Shown: positions 1,986-11,464 of the stretch, piece after piece
Numbering within the stretch: the stretch's first letter is position 1
Layout: the number at the start of each line of letters is the position of its first letter
Assembly (NCBI GenBank): GCA_947627735.1
Contig: CANQXG010000015.1
Location: 1-47,489 of the forward strand
Direction: 5' to 3'
Origin: an uncultured Oscillospiraceae bacterium
Lineage (GTDB): Bacteria > Bacillota > Clostridia > Oscillospirales > Oscillospiraceae
DNA length: 47,489 bases
Made by a program: the position numbers and the translations under genes
Notes under the pieces: model-generated
What the model was told of the DNA's origin: nothing
Database searches by the model: none
The model's input: the letters and a program-made list of their open reading frames with translations, nothing else

Positions 1986-4046
1986 TCAGATCTTCATGCA
2001 CACGTCCCAGGCGTTCCAGATGACGTTGCGGAGGTTGCCCCAGGACACGCACGTGCCCACCCGGTGGATGTTCTTGTCCTCCTCCCCCAGGGGGGCGGGC
2101 AGGAAGCCCACGGCGTTGACCACGCTGTCGCAGGCCAGATCAAAGGTCTTGCCGTCCTTGCCCTTCACGGTGACGGCCCCGTCCCGGATGTCGGTGATGG
2201 TGGAATTAAGGTACACCGGCACCTTCCGGAAGGCCAGCACGTCCCGGAGGAAGGAGCTGTTGGCCAGGCACGTGCCCGGGGCGGTGATCAGGTCATTTGC
2301 CATCTCCACGATCACCGGATGCCGGCCCTGGAGGCTCAGCTCATAGGCCGCCTCGCAGGCGGACTGGCCGCCGCCCAGGAACACCACCTTGTCGCCGGCG
2401 CCCTCGCCCAGCAGCAGCTGGGTGAAGGAGATGGTCTTTTCAAAGCCGGGGATGGGGAGGGTCTTGGCTTTGGAGCCGGTGCAGACGATCACCTCGTCGA
2501 ACTCGCCGATGAGGGAGGCGGGGTCGGCCACGGGCGTGTTCAGGCGGATCTCCACGCCGGCCTTGTCCAGCTCCCGGGCGTACCAGTCCAGCAGCCGCTT
2601 GTCCGCGTCCTTGAAGGACATGGCCGCCGCGGTGATGTACAGCCCGCCCAGCTTGTCGTCCTTTTCAAAGAGCACCGGCGTGTGGCCCCGCTTTTTCAGC
2701 ACCAGGGCGCACTCCATGCCGCCGATGCCGCCGCCGATCACGGCCACCTTCTTGGGCGTTTTGGCGGGGACGAGCTTATACTTTTTGCTCTGCATGGTGG
2801 GCGGGGTCAGGGCGCAGCGGGCCAGGTGCAGGGCGTCGGGCAGGCTCTGGGTGTTGGCCGTGCCCTCGCTCTTGGCGAAGTTGAAGCAGCCGTTGTGGCA
2901 GCCGATGCAGGGCTTGATGTCCTGCTCCCGGCCCTCCATCAGCTTGGTGACCCACTGGGGGTCCACCAGGTTCTGGCGGGCGGTGCCCATGGCGTCCAGG
3001 CGGCCGGCGGCGATCTCCGCCGCGGCGGTGGCCGGGTCCATCTTGCCGGCGCACACCACGGGCATGTCCGTGAACTGCTTGATGTGCTCCACCTCGGCCA
3101 GGTTGCAGTTCTTGCCCATGTACGTGGGCGGGTGGGGCCAGTACCAGGCGTCGTATGTGCCGTTGTCGCAGTTGAACATGGCGTAGCCCGCGTCCTGCAG
3201 GTATTTGATGGCCCGCTCCGACTCGGCCATGTCCCGGCCAAACTCGGTGAACTCCTCGCCGGGCACGGCGCCCTGGCCGAAGCCCTTGGTCTTGCTCACC
3301 ACCGAGTAGCGCAGGGCCACGGGGAAGTCGTCGCCGCAGTATTTGTGGATGCACTGGACGATCTCCACGGGGAAGCGGTAGCGGTTTTCAAAGCTGCCGC
3401 CGTAGGCGTCCGTGCGGTAGTTCATGTTGGCGATGGTGAACTGGTCCAAGAGATACCCCTCGTGGACCGCGTGGATCTCCACGCCGTCCACGCCGGCCTG
3501 GCGCAGCAGCTTTGCCGTCCGGCCGAAGGCGTCCACCATCTCCTGGATCTCCTCTATGGCCAGAGGCCGGCTCTTCAGCTCCGGATACCAGCGGTTGGGG
3601 GTCTCCGAGGCGGAGGCGCAGGCGTACTCGATGTCCAAAAAAGGCTTGGCCACCGTGCCCAGGGCCTTGTGCTTAAGCATCTTCACCATCAGGTCATTGA
3701 TGGCCATGGACCGGCCAAAGCCGGCGGCCAGCTGGATGAACAGCTTCGAGCCGGTCTTGTGGAACTCCGGCAGCCACTTCTCCAGGTCCCGGAACATCTT
3801 CTCGTTTTTATACAGCCACCGCCGGCCCATGGTGTCCCGCACGCACTGCATGCCCGGCAGCACCAGGCCCACGTTCTCCTGGGCCCGGTTCAGGATGTGA
3901 TGGGCGGCCTCCTTGTCGAAGTGGCAGGGCTCCAGCCAGCCGAACAGGCTGGTGCCGCCCATGGAGCACTGGACGATGCGGTTTTTGATCTCCACGTCCC
4001 CGATCTTCCAGGGGGTGAACAGCGGCGCGTATTTTTGATCCATCAT
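1986..4046 (-). CDS. Old-yellow-enzyme-type 2-enoate / 2,4-dienoyl-CoA reductase-like flavoprotein
   Basis: A 686-residue protein with the layout of E. coli FadH and clostridial enoate reductases. An N-terminal FMN TIM barrel starts FTPWKIGDVEIKNRIV. A 4Fe-4S site has cysteines 380, 383, 387 and 411, and a C-terminal FAD/NAD(P) part carries VAVIGGGIGG and VVFLGGGQSA motifs. Family members reduce activated C=C bonds with NAD(P)H. The fourth cysteine is 23 residues after the third, against 11 in FadH. The start is MMDQKY at 4046, with GAGG 9 bases upstream and 11 bases after the aconitase-X small subunit stop; the ATG at 4043 is an alternative. It is the last gene of an operon with aconitase X, which suggests it reduces the dehydration product or a later unsaturated intermediate. 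The substrate is not known. Confidence 0.85.
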   Translation of the reverse strand: MMDQKYAPLFTPWKIGDVEIKNRIVQCSMGGTSLFGWLEPCHFDKEAAHHILNRAQENVGLVLPGMQCVRDTMGRRWLYKNEKMFRDLEKWLPEFHKTGSKLFIQLAAGFGRSMAINDLMVKMLKHKALGTVAKPFLDIEYACASASETPNRWYPELKSRPLAIEEIQEMVDAFGRTAKLLRQAGVDGVEIHAVHEGYLLDQFTIANMNYRTDAYGGSFENRYRFPVEIVQCIHKYCGDDFPVALRYSVVSKTKGFGQGAVPGEEFTEFGRDMAESERAIKYLQDAGYAMFNCDNGTYDAWYWPHPPTYMGKNCNLAEVEHIKQFTDMPVVCAGKMDPATAAAEIAAGRLDAMGTARQNLVDPQWVTKLMEGREQDIKPCIGCHNGCFNFAKSEGTANTQSLPDALHLARCALTPPTMQSKKYKLVPAKTPKKVAVIGGGIGGMECALVLKKRGHTPVLFEKDDKLGGLYITAAAMSFKDADKRLLDWYARELDKAGVEIRLNTPVADPASLIGEFDEVIVCTGSKAKTLPIPGFEKTISFTQLLLGEGAGDKVVFLGGGQSACEAAYELSLQGRHPVIVEMANDLITAPGTCLANSSFLRDVLAFRKVPVYLNSTITDIRDGAVTVKGKDGKTFDLACDSVVNAVGFLPAPLGEEDKNIHRVGTCVSWGNLRNVIWNAWDVCMKI

Positions 4047-4057
4047 ATCATTGTACC

Positions 4058-4498
4058 TCACGCAACGGTCACGGTGCCGTCGGCGGCCACCGTGATGGTC
4101 ATGCCCGTCTGCACATACTGCAAAAACTCGTCCCCCAGCTGGTCCACCACGGGCATGCTCACATCCGTCCACACGTCCCCCAGAATGGCCCCGGAGGCGG
4201 CCAGGGAGTCGATGTGCTTGGAAAAGAGCATACACGCCGGCTGCCGGCCCATGGCGCAGGCGGCGTAGAGCACCATGCCGCCGGTGGTGGAGCCGATGGT
4301 CATGGGCAGGCACAGGGCCTTGCCCGCCATGGGCTTTTTATACAGGTCCGGGTTGTTCTGGTCGCCGCACTTGACCTTCTTGTCGCCGAACATCAGCGCC
4401 ATCTGGTAGCTGGCCAGGGTGTTGAAGCCGCCGTGGCTGACGAGGGCCTCGGCTGTGCATGTGCCGGGCACCACGGCGCGGCCTTTGAACTGTTTCAT
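4058..4498 (-). CDS. Aconitase X small subunit (DUF126 / swivel domain)
   Basis: A 146-residue protein matching the small swivelling domain of aconitase X, with the conserved GTCTAEALVSHGGFN segment near the start and IGSTTGGMVLYAAC in the middle. In archaea and many bacteria this domain is a separate subunit, as here; in others it is fused to the large one. The start at 4498 overlaps the large-subunit stop in ATGA, showing translational coupling. Characterised aconitase X enzymes dehydrate cis-3-hydroxy-L-proline (bacteria) or phosphomevalonate (archaea). The family call is firm; the substrate in this organism is open. Confidence 0.88.
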   Translation of the reverse strand: MKQFKGRAVVPGTCTAEALVSHGGFNTLASYQMALMFGDKKVKCGDQNNPDLYKKPMAGKALCLPMTIGSTTGGMVLYAACAMGRQPACMLFSKHIDSLAASGAILGDVWTDVSMPVVDQLGDEFLQYVQTGMTITVAADGTVTVA

Positions 4499-5775
4499 TT
4501 TGCGCCCTCCTTGCCGGTGATGATGTCCAGGATGTCCGCCTCGGTGTAGTACCGGGCGCTGGTGTATGTGCGCAGCTTGTTGGAGGAGGTGATGACCGCC
4601 TTGCTCTTGCAAAGGGGGTTATTCATGTACATCAGCGGGCAGATGTAGCTGACCACCACGCCGGTCCTGGCAAGCCTCGCGGCGTAGGGGGTCTTTTCAA
4701 ACTCCCGGATCACCGCCGTGGGCGCGGTGAACACCGTGGGCACCGCCACCTGCTGCCGGCCGGCGGCCTGCAGGCCCGCCTCCACCGCGTCCGTCCAGTC
4801 CTTAAGCTGGGTCAGGGACATGTGGGGGCAGCCGACGAAGCACAGCTTGGGCGCGGCGGAGGGATCCTTCCAGATCACGGGGTAGTTCCGCCGGACCTCC
4901 TCCAGGGTATCGTCGTCGATGACCCATGTCTGAGCACCCTCGGCGATGAGGCTCTCGCCCATGTCCACCGCCTCCGGGGTCAGATGCTCGATGTGGTAAA
5001 GGCCCACCGCGCCGTTGGAGGCGGTGGCCGCGCCGAAGTCCTTCAGATAGTCCTTCGCCGCGTCGTTGAGCTGCGTGCCCAGCCAAGGCTCCATGCCCCG
5101 GATGTAGGGCACGTCCTCCATCACCTTCATGCCGATGGCGGAACCCAGCAGCTGAGGCTCGGGGCGGTTTTTGCACCGCACGTCGATGACCCAGGTGGCC
5201 TTGCGGCCCTCGTCGGTGAGAAGGCCGAACTCCGGCACGAACCCGGCGATGGAACCCATGATCTCGATGATGCCGGAGTTGCGGTTGCACCGGGCGCCCA
5301 GCACGGAGTTTGCGTACACCACCGCCGAGGACTCCGCCCAGGACAGCGCCTCGCCCCGCTTGGGCGTGTTGCCCACCTCGTCCATGTAGCAGGTGCAGGT
5401 GTACCCGTCGTCGCCGGTGACGCCCAGCTTGTCCAGCTGGGATTCGTAACGGGCCTGCTGGTTGTACATGAATTTCTTAAAGACCAGGTTCTCCAGGAAG
5501 GAGGCCGGGACGTTGTCGTCCAGGGGCCGGGGATCGGCGGTGAACCGCTGCCCCTGGGGCAGGTCCCCGCTCAGAAGGGTGTCGTACAGATCGTAGATCG
5601 GCTTCATCACTCCCAGGCCGAAGCTGATCACCGTGTGGCCGTACTGGCTGGTCACCGGCACCATGCGCTCGGCCCCGAAGGTCTCGCCGTACATGACCAG
5701 GGTCTTGACCACCTTGGCCATCACGTCGCCCCGCTTGCCGTCCAGCAGAGCCTGCTGCTCATCTGTCAGGATCAT
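4495..5775 (-). CDS. Aconitase X catalytic (large) subunit, DUF521
   Basis: A 426-residue catalytic chain of aconitase X. Visible family signatures are TCTCYMDEVGN (residues 126-136), LGARCNRNSG (159-168) and FVGCPHMS (Cys316); these cysteines probably hold the Fe-S cluster. Known family reactions are dehydration of cis-3-hydroxy-L-proline to a pyrroline carboxylate, or of phosphomevalonate. No mevalonate-pathway gene is nearby, so a catabolic substrate such as a hydroxyproline-like acid is more likely (inference). It is the first gene of a three-gene operon, has GAGAGGTGG before its ATG, and has a promoter candidate at 5811-5839. Confidence 0.9.
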   Translation of the reverse strand: MILTDEQQALLDGKRGDVMAKVVKTLVMYGETFGAERMVPVTSQYGHTVISFGLGVMKPIYDLYDTLLSGDLPQGQRFTADPRPLDDNVPASFLENLVFKKFMYNQQARYESQLDKLGVTGDDGYTCTCYMDEVGNTPKRGEALSWAESSAVVYANSVLGARCNRNSGIIEIMGSIAGFVPEFGLLTDEGRKATWVIDVRCKNRPEPQLLGSAIGMKVMEDVPYIRGMEPWLGTQLNDAAKDYLKDFGAATASNGAVGLYHIEHLTPEAVDMGESLIAEGAQTWVIDDDTLEEVRRNYPVIWKDPSAAPKLCFVGCPHMSLTQLKDWTDAVEAGLQAAGRQQVAVPTVFTAPTAVIREFEKTPYAARLARTGVVVSYICPLMYMNNPLCKSKAVITSSNKLRTYTSARYYTEADILDIITGKEGAK

Positions 5776-5810
5776 AAGACCACCTCTCTTAAATTTGACA
5801 AGTTATATAA

Positions 5811-5839
5811 ATTATACAAGAATATGTCCCTGTAGTCCA
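5811..5839 (-). promoter_or_regulatory. Promoter of the aconitase-X operon
   Basis: On the minus strand TGGACT (5834-5839) and a perfect TATAAT (5811-5816) are 17 bases apart, in an AT-rich gap between divergent operons. The -35 match is moderate. Confidence 0.5.
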
Positions 5840-5891
5840 GCGGTATTTGCAAGTATTTCTCATTATTTTTCCATTTAGTGGCAGAAATAAG

Positions 5892-5920
5892 TTGTGCGCG
5901 GCCCGTTCGTATGGTATCAT
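5892..5920 (+). promoter_or_regulatory. Promoter of the DUF5058-M20 operon
   Basis: TTGTGC (5892-5897) and TATCAT (5915-5920) are 17 bases apart, followed by a leader carrying AAAAGGAGGGG just before the ATG at 5952. Confidence 0.55.
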
Positions 5921-5951
5921 GTGGTTAGAAACGATGAAAAGGAGGGGCCTT

Positions 5952-6704
5952 ATGGACATATTACAGAGGCTCAACAGCGCGCCTGTGTACCTCATCTGCG
6001 GGACCATCGTGGCCTTTGTGGCGGCGGTGTGCGTGGTGTTTATGGTGCGGGCCTGGCGGGCCGGGGTGGCCATCGGGATGGACAGGACGAAGATGAAGCG
6101 GGCCATCACCGCCAGCGCCACCTTCTCCGTGCTGCCCAGCGTGGGCATCCTGCTGGGGGTCATCGCCCTGTCGGGGAGCCTGGGCACGCCCTGGCCCTGG
6201 CTGCGGCTGTCGGTGATCGGCGCGCTGCACTATGAAACGCAGGTGGCCCAGGCGGCGGCGGAGCAGGTGGGCATGGGCACCCTGTCCGCGGCGTCGATGA
6301 CGCCCTCCGGCTTTGCCACCATCGCGCTGCTGATGAGCGTGTGCATCATGTGGGGCATGGTGCTGAGCGTGTTTTTCAACAAGCGCTACACGAAAAAGCT
6401 GGGCGCCGGCGCCGGGGAGGGCAAGTCCGGCGGCTTCGGCGACCTGGCCATGACGGCCATGTTCATCGGCCTGGTCAGCGCCTACATCGGCAGCTACGTG
6501 GGCGGGTTCATCTCCGGGGGAGGGCTGTTCTCCTTCGGCGGGGACTGGACGCCCCTGGTGGTGGTCGCGGCGGCGTGCCTGGCCATGGCGGGGTGCGTGT
6601 ATCTGAGCGAGAAGAAGAACATGGCCTGGCTGGACAGCTTTTCCATCGCCGGGAGCATGATCGTGGGCATGGCGGCGGCGGTGCTGGTCGGCGCCGTGGC
6701 GTGA
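5952..6704 (+). CDS. Polytopic membrane protein, probably DUF5058 family
   Basis: A 250-residue protein with about six hydrophobic segments (roughly residues 13-33, 55-76, 115-140, 155-178, 195-215, 225-245). It matches my recollection of DUF5058, a family of unknown function; no catalytic motif is visible. The ATG at 5952 follows AAAAGGAGGGG with good spacing, so an upstream in-frame ATG is not used. It is the first of three genes and is followed 12 bases later by a second small membrane protein. Two similar-sized polytopic proteins in a row suggest a two-component carrier. The M20 hydrolase downstream suggests a peptide or acyl-amino-acid cargo; this is inference. Confidence 0.65.
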   Translation: MDILQRLNSAPVYLICGTIVAFVAAVCVVFMVRAWRAGVAIGMDRTKMKRAITASATFSVLPSVGILLGVIALSGSLGTPWPWLRLSVIGALHYETQVAQAAAEQVGMGTLSAASMTPSGFATIALLMSVCIMWGMVLSVFFNKRYTKKLGAGAGEGKSGGFGDLAMTAMFIGLVSAYIGSYVGGFISGGGLFSFGGDWTPLVVVAAACLAMAGCVYLSEKKNMAWLDSFSIAGSMIVGMAAAVLVGAVA

Positions 6705-6716
6705 GGAGGTGCGGAT

Positions 6717-7400
6717 ATGAACGAAAAGACCGTATTTGAAAGCTACAACCGCCGCACCCATGTGATCGGACGGGCCGTCACCACCGTGACGCTCATCATG
6801 CTGGTGGGCGCGCCCTTCCTCATCGGCGGGGTGCTGGGGGCCATGCCCGATCTGGGGGCCGTGGCCCGGGCATTCTTGTCCGTGGGCCTGGTGTGGACGG
6901 TGAGCAGCGTGGTGGAGTTTCTGGTGTACACCCCCATGCTGGGGGCCGGGGGAGGATACCTGGCGTTCATCACCGGCAACCTCATCAACATGAAGATCCC
7001 CTGCGCCGTCAACGCCCGGGACATGGTGGGGGCCAAGACCGGCACGGCGGAGAACGAGATCATCTCCACGCTGTCCATCGCCACGTCCAGCCTGGTGACC
7101 ATCCTGGTGCTGGCGCTGGGGGTGCTGCTGCTGGCGCCGCTGCAGCCGGTGCTCCAAAGCCCGGTGCTGCGCCCGGCCTTCGACAACGTGGTCCCGGCCC
7201 TGTTCGGGGCCATGGCCTACCGGTATTACAGGAAGAACATGGACGTGGCCCTGGCGCCCCTGGTGCTGATGAGCGCGCTGTTCATCTTCGTGCCCAGCCT
7301 CACCGGGTCCACCAGCTTCATGGTGATCCCCTCCGGCGGCATCGCCATCGCCATCGCGTACCTGCTGTATAAAAAAGGAAGGAAGGGGGCCGCCCGATGA
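6717..7400 (+). CDS. Polytopic membrane protein of unknown function
   Basis: A 227-residue protein with five to six membrane segments and a short basic tail ending KKGRKGAAR. A glycine-rich stretch, MLGAGGGYLAFITGNLIN, near residues 79-96 lies between hydrophobic segments and could line a substrate path. I do not recognise a named family. TGAGGAGGTG at the end of the previous gene gives its ribosome site, and its stop overlaps the next start in ATGA, so the three genes are coupled. It is a probable partner of the DUF5058-like protein. Confidence 0.7.
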   Translation: MNEKTVFESYNRRTHVIGRAVTTVTLIMLVGAPFLIGGVLGAMPDLGAVARAFLSVGLVWTVSSVVEFLVYTPMLGAGGGYLAFITGNLINMKIPCAVNARDMVGAKTGTAENEIISTLSIATSSLVTILVLALGVLLLAPLQPVLQSPVLRPAFDNVVPALFGAMAYRYYRKNMDVALAPLVLMSALFIFVPSLTGSTSFMVIPSGGIAIAIAYLLYKKGRKGAAR

Positions 7401-8836
7401 AGACGTTTCTCATCCTGCTGGGCTGTGTGCTGGGCATCGTCCTGGCGCTGGTGCTCATCGCAGTGGTGCGCACGCTGCTGACGCCGGCGAAGAAGTCCGA
7501 GTATGCGCCGCCGCCCGCGGACGGCGAAGCCATGGCCCTGGCAGAGAAGCTGGCGAAGATGGTCCGGTGCCGGACTGTGTCCCAGCCGGGGCAGACAGAC
7601 CTCGGCGCCTTTTCCCAGCTGCAAAAGACCATGGAGGAGCTGTTCCCCCTGGTCCATGAGAAGCTGGAAAAAACCGTCATCGACGGCAACCTGCTGTTTT
7701 ACTGGAAGGGCAAGAGCCGGGAAAAGCCCATCCTGCTGATGAGCCATCAGGACGTGGTCCCGGCGGAGGGACCCTGGACCCACGAACCCTTTGCCGGGGA
7801 GATCTCCGACGGGCGGGTGTGGGGCCGGGGCGCGGCAGACACCAAGTGCTCGCTGATGGCCTTCTTCCAGGCGGTGGAACAGCTCCTGGCGGAGGGGTTC
7901 CAGCCCGCCTGCGACGTGTATTTGGCCAGCTCCTGCACGGAGGAGTGGGGCGGCGACGGCGCGCCCAAGATCGTCGGGGAGCTGCAAAAGCGGGGCGTGG
8001 AGCTGTTTCTGCTCTGCGACGAGGGCGGCGCCATCATCTCCGAACCCATCGGCGGCGTCCACGGCAACTTCGCCATGGTGGGGGTGTTTGAAAAGGGCAA
8101 GGCCAACGTGCGCTTCACCGCCCGCAGCGGAGGCGGCCACGCCAGCGCCCCGGGGAAGAACACCCCGGTGGACCGGGTGGCGGCCTTCGTGCACAGCATG
8201 CAGACCCGCTCCCCCTTCCGGAAGAAATTCCTGCCGGAGGTCACGGCCATGTTTGGCCGCCTGGCCCCTTACGCCCCCTTCGGGCTGCGGCTGGTGCTGG
8301 GGAACCTGTGGCTGTTCGGGCCGATCCTGAAGCCCATCCTGCCCTCCATCAGCGCCCAGGCGGGTGCCATGCTCCAGACCACGGCGGCGTTCACGGTGCT
8401 GTCCGGCTCCGAGGCATATAATGTGCTGCCCCAGGAGGCCTCCGTGGGGGTCAACATGCGCTTCATCCCCCACCAGGGGGAGAAGGAGAGCCTGGCGCTG
8501 ATCGAGGCCCGGGCGGAGAAGTTCGGCCTGGAGATGGAGGTGCTGCTCAGCAATGACTTCTCCCCGCTGGTAGACATCCGCGGCGAGGCCTATCAGCTGG
8601 TGGAGCGGGTCATCGGCCAGACCTTCCCGGGCCTGCCCGTGAGTCCCTATGTGATGACCGGGGCCACGGACGCCTATTTCTACCGGGACATCTGCCCCAG
8701 CTGCATCCGCTTCGCGCCGGTGGTGTTCGGCCCGGAGCAGATGAAGGGCATGCACGGGCTGGACGAGTGCGTGGACGTGAACTGCCTGCCCGGCGCGGTG
8801 GCGTTTTACGAGAACCTGATCCGCGCCCAGGGCTGA
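7397..8836 (+). CDS. M20 family metallopeptidase / amidohydrolase with N-terminal membrane anchor
   Basis: A 479-residue di-zinc hydrolase. The first 28 residues form a membrane anchor. Metal ligands and catalytic residues are visible as H117/D119 in MSHQDVVP, D148 in GRGAADTK, E182-E183 in CTEEWGGDG, D208 in LLCDEGG and H453 in MKGMHGLDE. The length and the YVMTGATDAYFYRD region resemble the carboxypeptidase S/PM20D1 branch, which cleaves dipeptides or N-acyl amino acids. The anchor puts it at the membrane next to the two membrane proteins encoded just upstream, but which side it faces is not clear. It probably supplies a small product to the divergent aconitase-X operon (inference). Confidence 0.88.
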   Translation: MKTFLILLGCVLGIVLALVLIAVVRTLLTPAKKSEYAPPPADGEAMALAEKLAKMVRCRTVSQPGQTDLGAFSQLQKTMEELFPLVHEKLEKTVIDGNLLFYWKGKSREKPILLMSHQDVVPAEGPWTHEPFAGEISDGRVWGRGAADTKCSLMAFFQAVEQLLAEGFQPACDVYLASSCTEEWGGDGAPKIVGELQKRGVELFLLCDEGGAIISEPIGGVHGNFAMVGVFEKGKANVRFTARSGGGHASAPGKNTPVDRVAAFVHSMQTRSPFRKKFLPEVTAMFGRLAPYAPFGLRLVLGNLWLFGPILKPILPSISAQAGAMLQTTAAFTVLSGSEAYNVLPQEASVGVNMRFIPHQGEKESLALIEARAEKFGLEMEVLLSNDFSPLVDIRGEAYQLVERVIGQTFPGLPVSPYVMTGATDAYFYRDICPSCIRFAPVVFGPEQMKGMHGLDECVDVNCLPGAVAFYENLIRAQG

Positions 8837-10297: not shown

Positions 10298-11464
10298 ATG
10301 GCACAGGTATCGATCGTATCCTGCCCGGACTATACGCCCCATGCGTGCCGGGAGGCGCTGCTGGCGGCGCTTGGCCCCATCGGCGGGCTGGATTTCGTAA
10401 AGCAGGGCATGCGCGTGGCCGTCAAGGCCAACCTGGTGAGCTTCTTAAAGCCGGAGGCGGGGGCCACCACCCACCCGGTGCTGCTGGCGGAGCTGACGAA
10501 GCTTTTGAAGGAGCGGGGCGCGGCCAGCGTGGTCATCGGTGACAGCCCCGGTGGGCTGTTTACGGCGGCGTATGTGAAGAACGTCTACCGGGCCGCGGGG
10601 ATGCATGAGGCGGAGGCCGCCGGGGCGGAGCTGAACATGGACTTCTCCCAGAAGGAGGCGGACGATCCCGCCGGGCGCGTGGCGAAGCACTTCACCTACA
10701 CCGGCTGGCTGGACGGCTGCGACGCCATCGTGGACTTCTGCAAGCTGAAAAGCCACGGCATGATGGCCATGACCGGCGCGGCCAAGAACATGTTCGGCTC
10801 CATCCCCGGCACCATGAAACCGGAGTATCACTATAAATACCCCAACGCCGCAGACTTTGCCCGGATGATCGTGGACCTGGACGAGTATTTCAAGCCCGTG
10901 CTCTCCATCGCCGACGCGGTGGTGGGCATGGACGGCAACGGCCCCACCATGGGCAAGGCCAAGCATATGGGATTTCTGGCTGCGTCCCGGTCGCCCCACA
11001 TGCTGGACCTGGCGTGCGCGGAGCTGATCGGTCTGGGGCGGGAGGACGTGCCCACCCTGGAGGCGGCCCGGGAGCGGGGCCTCATCCCCGACAGCTGGAA
11101 AGAGCTGGACATCGCCGGGGACATGGAGTCGTTCCGGGTGCGGGATTTCAATAACATCCGCACCAAGAGCGACGTGGTGTTCTTCGGCGAGATGCTCCTG
11201 GGGGAGGGCAGCAGCCCCTTCAAGCGGGCCTTCGGCAAGCTGATGCAAAAGGCCCTCAGCTCCCGGCCCAATGTGGCGCCGAAGGAGTGCGTGGGCTGCG
11301 GCCAGTGCGCCAGCATCTGCCCCGCCAAGGCCATCACCATGGAGCAGAAACTGCCCCGCATCGACAGGAGCAAGTGCATCCGCTGCTTCTGCTGCCAGGA
11401 GTTCTGTCCCAAGGGGGCCATGAAGGTGGCCAGGCCGCCCATCGCCCGGCTGCTGAACCGATAA
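10298..11464 (+). CDS. DUF362 domain protein with C-terminal 2x[4Fe-4S] ferredoxin domain
   Basis: A 388-residue protein. Residues 1 to about 310 are DUF362, a domain of unclear reaction common in anaerobes. Residues about 325-380 are a bacterial ferredoxin domain with CVGCGQCASICP and CIRCFCCQEFCP, enough cysteines for two 4Fe-4S clusters. This suggests a cytoplasmic electron-transfer or Fe-S-dependent enzyme. It is followed 13 bases later by tatD with a clear AAGGAGG, so the two genes probably form an operon; I see no obvious functional link. Confidence 0.9.
   Translation: MAQVSIVSCPDYTPHACREALLAALGPIGGLDFVKQGMRVAVKANLVSFLKPEAGATTHPVLLAELTKLLKERGAASVVIGDSPGGLFTAAYVKNVYRAAGMHEAEAAGAELNMDFSQKEADDPAGRVAKHFTYTGWLDGCDAIVDFCKLKSHGMMAMTGAAKNMFGSIPGTMKPEYHYKYPNAADFARMIVDLDEYFKPVLSIADAVVGMDGNGPTMGKAKHMGFLAASRSPHMLDLACAELIGLGREDVPTLEAARERGLIPDSWKELDIAGDMESFRVRDFNNIRTKSDVVFFGEMLLGEGSSPFKRAFGKLMQKALSSRPNVAPKECVGCGQCASICPAKAITMEQKLPRIDRSKCIRCFCCQEFCPKGAMKVARPPIARLLNR

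Follow-up and report, generated by a model that had tools for sequence, protein, structure and literature searches.

Gene content of the locus

We analysed a 47,489-nucleotide stretch (the window) of contig CANQXG010000015.1 from an uncultured Oscillospiraceae bacterium, and in particular a locus at positions 1986–8836 that encodes both subunits of an aconitase X (AcnX), a flavoenzyme of the FadH/OYE type (hereafter FadH), two polytopic membrane proteins and an M20 hydrolase (Table 1). The six-gene divergent layout had been predicted from the sequence, with AcnX and the FadH-like protein facing the membrane proteins and hydrolase across 176 bases, and it was borne out by open reading frames (ORFs) and family scans. 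As described below, AcnX and FadH are a real pair, conserved beyond chance.

The genes on each strand are closely spaced. Those for the large and small AcnX subunits overlap by 4 bases, and the likely FadH start at 4046 (Met-Met-Asp-Gln) lies 11 bases past the small-subunit stop; a start at 4313, as in the longest ORF, was rejected because it overlaps the AcnX small-subunit gene. On the opposite strand, 12 bases separate DUF5058 from the gene of its membrane partner, which overlaps the M20 gene by four. These short gaps and overlaps therefore indicate two tight operons that point apart. A scan of positions 5700–6020, based on the consensus alone, revealed two weak sigma-70-like matches, one on each strand, compared with a mean of 0.6 in shuffled sequences. 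The source genome contains one match to PF04412 and two to PF00724.

Table 1. Features of the locus, with positions in the window
Feature	Position	Strand	Basis
AcnX large (catalytic) subunit	4495..5775	-	PF04412 303.6 bits, cut-off 31.5
AcnX small swivel subunit, Gly-Ser70-Thr-Thr motif	4058..4498	-	PF01989 43.9 bits, cut-off 27
FadH/OYE-type flavoenzyme, proposed enoate reductase	1986..4046	-	PF00724 171.9 bits, PF07992 (Pyr_redox_2) 96.1 bits
Divergent intergenic stretch, 176 bases, one promoter-like match per strand	5776..5951	.	Sequence and consensus scan
DUF5058 polytopic membrane protein	5952..6704	+	PF16481 248.3 bits; hydrophobicity
Polytopic membrane partner of DUF5058	6717..7400	+	No Pfam match; adjoins DUF5058 in 19 of 20 fetched loci
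M20 hydrolase, membrane-anchored at its N-terminus	7397..8836	+	PF01546 114.1 bits; hydrophobic stretch 1-33

AcnX and FadH are a conserved pair

At least 586 stretches in a collection of named genomes encode AcnX relatives, and the best 80 were taken as named loci; nearly all come from Oscillospiraceae or Clostridia assemblies, many of them animal-gut, and one from Coriobacteriales (L049). In 40 of the 80 loci a FadH gene (more than 45% identity, same strand, no further than 1.2 kb away) is next to AcnX, preceding it in 32 (FadH-large-small) and following it in 8 (large-small-FadH). The gap to AcnX is 12–23 bases in 25 of the 32 FadH-first loci. In loci without FadH, the genes around AcnX look mostly like housekeeping genes, judged by eye from the starts of their sequences. 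Genes in the loci were called with a home-made score that missed at least one real gene (the M20 gene of L049), and in the 98-locus set used for alignments and neighbourhoods some genomes are present twice (L011/L055 and L015/L056 look alike).

Co-occurrence was surveyed in 400 genomes of the family. AcnX of the window type, defined by E ≤ 1e-100 and 65% identity or more, was found in 52, the source genome included, window-type FadH (at least 55% identity) in 51 and both in 43, giving an odds ratio of 203 (Fisher p 1.6e-40, uncorrected for kinship); the genome lists behind the co-occurrence counts were transcribed by hand. The two genes are adjacent in 16 of these 43 genomes, as read by hand from coordinates, and apart in 27; the link thus also holds in trans. 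Within the window's genus, the source genome and G358 have AcnX and FadH, and the other seven listed have neither. PF04412 as a whole is commoner than window-type AcnX (124 of the 400 genomes at E ≤ 0.001, 97 above the cut-off), and other AcnX branches therefore share the same family of genomes. Thirteen AcnX loci from other branches served as a weak control: within their flanks, which span about 1.5 kb at most, nothing matched FadH.

A survey of 398 genomes across the phylum (AcnX at E ≤ 1e-60) found AcnX in seven, again counting the source genome. The large subunit, small subunit and a FadH-type gene occur together, in both orders, in five of the six distant matches (L184–L188), at 41–54% identity to the window for AcnX and 28–37% for FadH. 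The sixth, L183, has AcnX without FadH. Adjacency, co-occurrence and the FadH tree described below all support the original prediction that AcnX and a FadH-like reductase belong together. The conserved adjacency that it suggested seeking across genomes was found for this pair but did not extend to DUF5058, its partner and M20. The AcnX-FadH pair is named in no title or abstract start of our literature search.

Residues and phylogeny of AcnX

Both subunits scored above the curated cut-offs for AcnX families PF04412 and PF01989, and phmmer matched the large subunit to 7cnr_A (E 1.8e-40) and the small subunit to 7cnr_B (E 1.8e-6). Cys127, Cys316, Cys379, Glu148, Ser149, Lys400 and Tyr404 did not vary across the 98 aligned loci, and small-subunit Ser70, Thr71 and Thr72 were present in all 96 aligned rows. 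Pairwise matching to Thermococcus AcnX equated its Cys110, Cys283, Glu129 and Ser130 with Cys127, Cys316, Glu148 and Ser149, respectively; Cys342, Lys361 and Tyr365, outside the printed pairwise match, correspond to Cys379, Lys400 and Tyr404 in multiple alignments. In the small subunit, Thermococcus Ser62, Thr63 and Val64 correspond to Ser70, Thr71 and Thr72. Residue roles in the Thermococcus enzyme, including a phosphate contact by Asn79, are given in PMC8184944. We propose that Cys127, Cys316 and Cys379 are the cluster ligands and that Ser70 of the swivel subunit is the general-base serine, both assignments being made from alignment.

Two AcnX activities are described, and four bacterial subclasses stand without function in the published phylogeny, according to PMC8184944. 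The type IIb phosphomevalonate dehydratase TkAcnX (7CNR/7CNS; PMC8184944 and PMC10040528) shares with the window enzyme two subunits, three cysteines, the Glu/Ser/Lys/Tyr set and the swivel serine. However, its phosphate-site residues Gly48, Ser50, Asn53 and Asn79 read Thr48, Ile50, Gly53 and Asp81 in the pairwise match (Asn53 does not pair with Gly53 in the 30-row tree alignment), 101 of 323 aligned residues are identical, the clades are separate, and the window enzyme has a reductase partner. Of the type IIb landmarks, the three [4Fe-4S] cysteines were therefore found, whereas the phosphate-binding residues and the clade were not.

Type I AcnX (PMC5144071 and PMC8184944) has in common with the window protein the family, the serine base, Glu and Lys, and the Thr72 and Ile contacts. 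In contrast to it, the window AcnX has two separate subunits and Cys316 in place of a Cys-x-Cys pair, and no hydroxyproline cluster was seen around it. Two of four type I landmarks are kept (Thr72, Ile50) and two are changed: Asp203, which binds the hydroxyproline ring nitrogen, reads His47, and Trp35 reads Leu28. The NF051439 score is 136.7 bits, against a cut-off of 700. On these residue comparisons, the window AcnX has neither the full type I nor the full type IIb landmark set. AcnX types IIc–IIf are, like the window enzyme, bacterial and composed of two subunits; in PMC8184944 they are said to have neither enzyme's landmark residues, whereas the window AcnX has retained two type I contacts out of four, and a subclass letter is not assignable from that published description.

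His47 is invariant in the aligned loci. Together with Val49, Ser51, Asp81-Pro82 and Tyr104, it is common to L183–L187 and a Rhodococcus relative and absent from L188, the type I proteins and Thermococcus, with the proviso that the letter at position 47 for L188 and some far rows differs between two alignments. A 30-row AcnX tree groups the window, its relatives, Rhodococcus and L183–L188 into a clade of 15 (100/99), away from Thermococcus and from four type I proteins in which the subunits are fused; the Thermococcus row was cut to 327 residues and the tree carries a long-branch warning. The original prediction had proposed such a tree, with the possibility that the large subunit might fall among enzymes with a proven substrate; it falls in a clade of its own, apart from both known enzymes. 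An AcnX of another branch, on a Paroceanicella plasmid (L212), occurs with DUF126, an FAD-dependent oxidoreductase, an IlvD-type dehydratase and a C4-dicarboxylate TRAP transporter.

The FadH-type flavoenzyme

FadH consists of a flavin mononucleotide (FMN) barrel, the cysteine motif C380-x2-C383-x3-C387-x23-C411 and a flavin adenine dinucleotide (FAD)/NAD(P) domain. Its Oxidored_FMN and Pyr_redox domains and the four-cysteine motif place it among the FadH/OYE iron-sulphur flavoenzymes; HAVHEGY and the four cysteines are conserved in a 74-row alignment, and its PDB relatives include the 2,4-dienoyl-CoA reductase 1ps9. This architecture is shared with the group of FadH, BaiCD and bilirubin reductase, from which the window enzyme differs in its AcnX partner and in NCBIfam scores below the cut-offs. 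Assignments as a BaiCD bile-acid reductase (305 bits, 825 needed) and as a bilirubin reductase (256 bits, 750 needed) were accordingly not supported.

A FadH tree of 42 rows unites the window type, a mid-group and the partners from L184–L188 in one set of 32 (100/99). Outside it fall E. coli FadH and nine further FadH/OYE proteins, same-genome paralogues among them; there is a long-branch warning among these outside rows, and L215 (49% filled) was left out. The mid-group FadHs (44–50% identical) were found in 24 genomes, none with window-type AcnX, and account for 19 rows of the tree. A first tree without them showed the AcnX-partner FadHs as an exclusive group, a view that we abandoned when the mid-group, once added, nested inside. 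Since the mid-group lives without window-type AcnX, FadH does not need AcnX; its nesting with the window type suggests that FadH was partnered with AcnX before the two split, and that the mid-group uses FadH in another setting.

Seven of the 19 mid-group loci have arabinofuranosidase, PF00756 esterase, BD-FAE esterase or DUF3237 neighbours (L228, L229, L233, L234, L236, L237 and L238). GH51-type arabinofuranosidases are found in L228, L229 and L234, PF00756 esterases in L233, L234, L236, L237 and L238, and BD-FAE esterases in L233 and L234; Pfam was run on members from L228, L234 and L237, and the remaining loci were assigned by clustering. In L142, L151, L152 and L181, a stand-alone FadH gene has Rnf-type genes adjacent or close to it, across two genera and in different arrangements.

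A proposed dehydration-reduction sequence

With a probability of roughly 0.57, we propose that AcnX and FadH would act consecutively on a free, rather than coenzyme A (CoA)-bound, beta-hydroxy acid, converting it to an enoate and then to the saturated acid. AcnX would remove a proton from C2 and the hydroxyl from C3, with loss of water, and FadH would then carry electrons from NAD(P)H through FMN, a 4Fe-4S cluster and FAD to the C=C bond of the resulting alpha,beta-unsaturated acid. This reduction would pull the dehydration forward and re-oxidize NAD(P)H, so that the pair may serve a fermenter as an electron sink. AcnX keeps the swivel serine, the Glu/Ser/Lys/Tyr residues that hold the carboxylate and hydroxyl in solved relatives, and cysteines at the archaeal [4Fe-4S] positions; the predicted order of dehydration and then C=C reduction by a flavoenzyme fits both enzyme types. 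A reductase that travels with one AcnX branch would narrow the reaction to dehydration of a free beta-hydroxy acid followed by reduction of the enoate and, if the proposal is correct, would add a CoA-free dehydration-reduction route to animal-gut fermenters.

Several observations weigh against this proposal. FadH is absent from 9 of the 52 genomes with AcnX, and AcnX from 8 of the 51 with FadH; some genomes are incomplete, and one of the nine (G346) has pieces of FadH in two ORFs beside AcnX (L024). No FadH adjoins AcnX in the other 40 named loci, 10 of which end close by, or in the Rhodococcus relative. The mid-group FadHs count on the same side, nesting with the window type yet occurring without its AcnX. 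In addition, the literature found reports no assay of an enzyme of this AcnX branch, and no conserved transporter was seen.

Neither cis-3-hydroxyproline nor mevalonate 5-phosphate is likely to be the substrate. That AcnX might be a cis-3-hydroxyproline dehydratase, with FadH replacing the pyrroline reductase, is consistent with its family, which is that of type I AcnX, with the match of small-subunit Thr72 and of Ile50 to two type I contacts, and with the proline racemase gene and sigma-54 regulator (best NCBIfam model PrdR, 379 of 795 bits, below cut-off) near the pair in L186. However, the exchange of Asp203 for His47, the missing Cys-x-Cys ligand pair and the low NF051439 score all speak against it, and a full-length proline racemase occurs in 3 of 53 genomes with window-type AcnX compared with 2 of 27 without, the source genome having none. 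Hydroxyproline, raised in the original prediction, is thus disfavoured by the AcnX residues and the lack of a racemase, and we consider it highly improbable. In L186 the racemase gene adjoins AcnX-FadH, and a short fragment of a second, with an internal stop, lies a few kilobases off (2767–2883 and 10361–11368). Hydroxydicarboxylic or branched beta-hydroxy acids such as malate, citramalate, 3-hydroxy-3-methylglutarate or unphosphorylated mevalonate are a more tenable, if still doubtful, class. Their chemistry fits, the archaeal phosphate contacts are changed (Asn79 to Asp and, in the pairwise match, Asn53 to Gly), His47 is invariant and, with no transporter conserved, an internal metabolite is possible, but no genomic link to them was found, and Asp81, if it faces the substrate, would disfavour a second carboxylate. 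Carnitine was also considered, with Asp81 for its cation.

There are weak hints of phenylpropenoate-like acids. In this version of the free beta-hydroxy-acid proposal, which we hold to be unlikely, the substrate of AcnX would be a 3-hydroxy-3-arylpropanoate, dehydrated to a cinnamate-type acid that FadH would reduce to the arylpropanoate. The nearest FadHs, those of the mid-group, lie beside arabinofuranosidase and esterase genes, as expected for enzymes that hydrogenate hydroxycinnamates from plant fibre, which suggests that they may be reductases of such acids; esterase neighbours were not, however, seen in window-type FadH loci. In Rhodococcus opacus PD630, AcnX has the same pocket residues. 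Its gene is flanked by a LysR, MFS, hydrolase and SDR block on one side and a GntR gene on the other, and a 3-carboxyethylcatechol dioxygenase cluster, which we take to serve 3-(3-hydroxyphenyl)propionate breakdown, lies 5.5 kb away, but the clusters are separate operons. MarR-type regulators, which often sense phenolic acids, are encoded upstream in 9 of the 98 loci (of AcnX in six and FadH in three; Pfam was run on two). A more specific and improbable form is a CoA-free route of gut Clostridia in which AcnX would dehydrate 3-hydroxy-3-arylpropanoates, for example the urinary metabolite 3-(3-hydroxyphenyl)-3-hydroxypropionate, and its paired FadH would reduce the cinnamate, or in which AcnX would hydrate hydroxycinnamates in reverse. 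If true, this would be a third AcnX chemistry, linked to dietary phenolics.

The DUF5058, membrane partner and M20 operon

The M20 hydrolase is nearest to the PRK08262 group of NCBIfam (NF006113, 270 bits, below the cut-off of 503). AlphaFold models of DUF5058 and its partner had mean predicted local distance difference test scores of 53 and 58, too poor for a fold search, and the word DUF5058 was absent from the literature searched. In 20 fetched DUF5058 loci away from AcnX, the partner adjoins in 19 and M20 in 15; a match to the window M20 was not detected in L196, L197, L202 and L203 (within L189–L207), and L208 had no match to the window proteins.

The original prediction had joined the membrane pair and M20 with AcnX and FadH in one module that imports, hydrolyses, dehydrates and reduces, and we find it unlikely that such a module exists even as an option in some species. 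Where all three genes adjoin AcnX, they are divergent from it in the window and L033 and convergent with it in L056; the M20 gene is also seen in L015, which seems to duplicate L056. Of 80 genomes, 27 encode DUF5058: it is present in 24 of the 52 with window-type AcnX, compared with 3 of 28 hand-picked genomes without (p 0.0013). In a 235-genome set, taken as G000–G234 by inference from the listing, the membrane partner was found in 41. Among the 24 of these genomes with AcnX, 8 have its close type (at least 59% identity), as do 11 of the 211 that lack AcnX (p 0.00013); for any type the counts are 9 of 24 and 32 of 211 (p 0.019). None of these comparisons is corrected for kinship. In the Coriobacteriales locus L049 (6627–9490), an MFS_2 transporter gene and then an M20 gene precede AcnX-FadH on the same strand, without DUF5058; this M20, about 0.5 kb before AcnX, is 35% identical, scores 84.7 bits with Pfam and looks anchored. 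These close-type partner counts and the L049 M20 made an optional link somewhat less improbable and slightly lowered our estimate for the free beta-hydroxy acid.

On the other hand, adjacency to AcnX is confined to these few of 98 loci, G358 (AcnX 95% identical) and L032 (94%) have other genes upstream of AcnX, and the association is far weaker than that of FadH, which is present in 20 of 24 genomes with AcnX and 3 of 211 without in the same set. We therefore rejected the three genes as a constant part of an AcnX module: co-occurrence and the L049 M20 favour the predicted link, adjacency does not. Away from AcnX they make up an operon without it, and they are probably a mostly independent unit whose tie to AcnX is weaker and may reflect kinship; that they feed the pair in some species is possible but improbable. 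As such they are a second unit deserving study.

At positions 548–1912 the window also encodes a protein whose N-terminus weakly resembles methyltransferases (LCM family, with a score below cut-off) and which ends in a STAS domain; it was unmatched in the other fetched AcnX loci.

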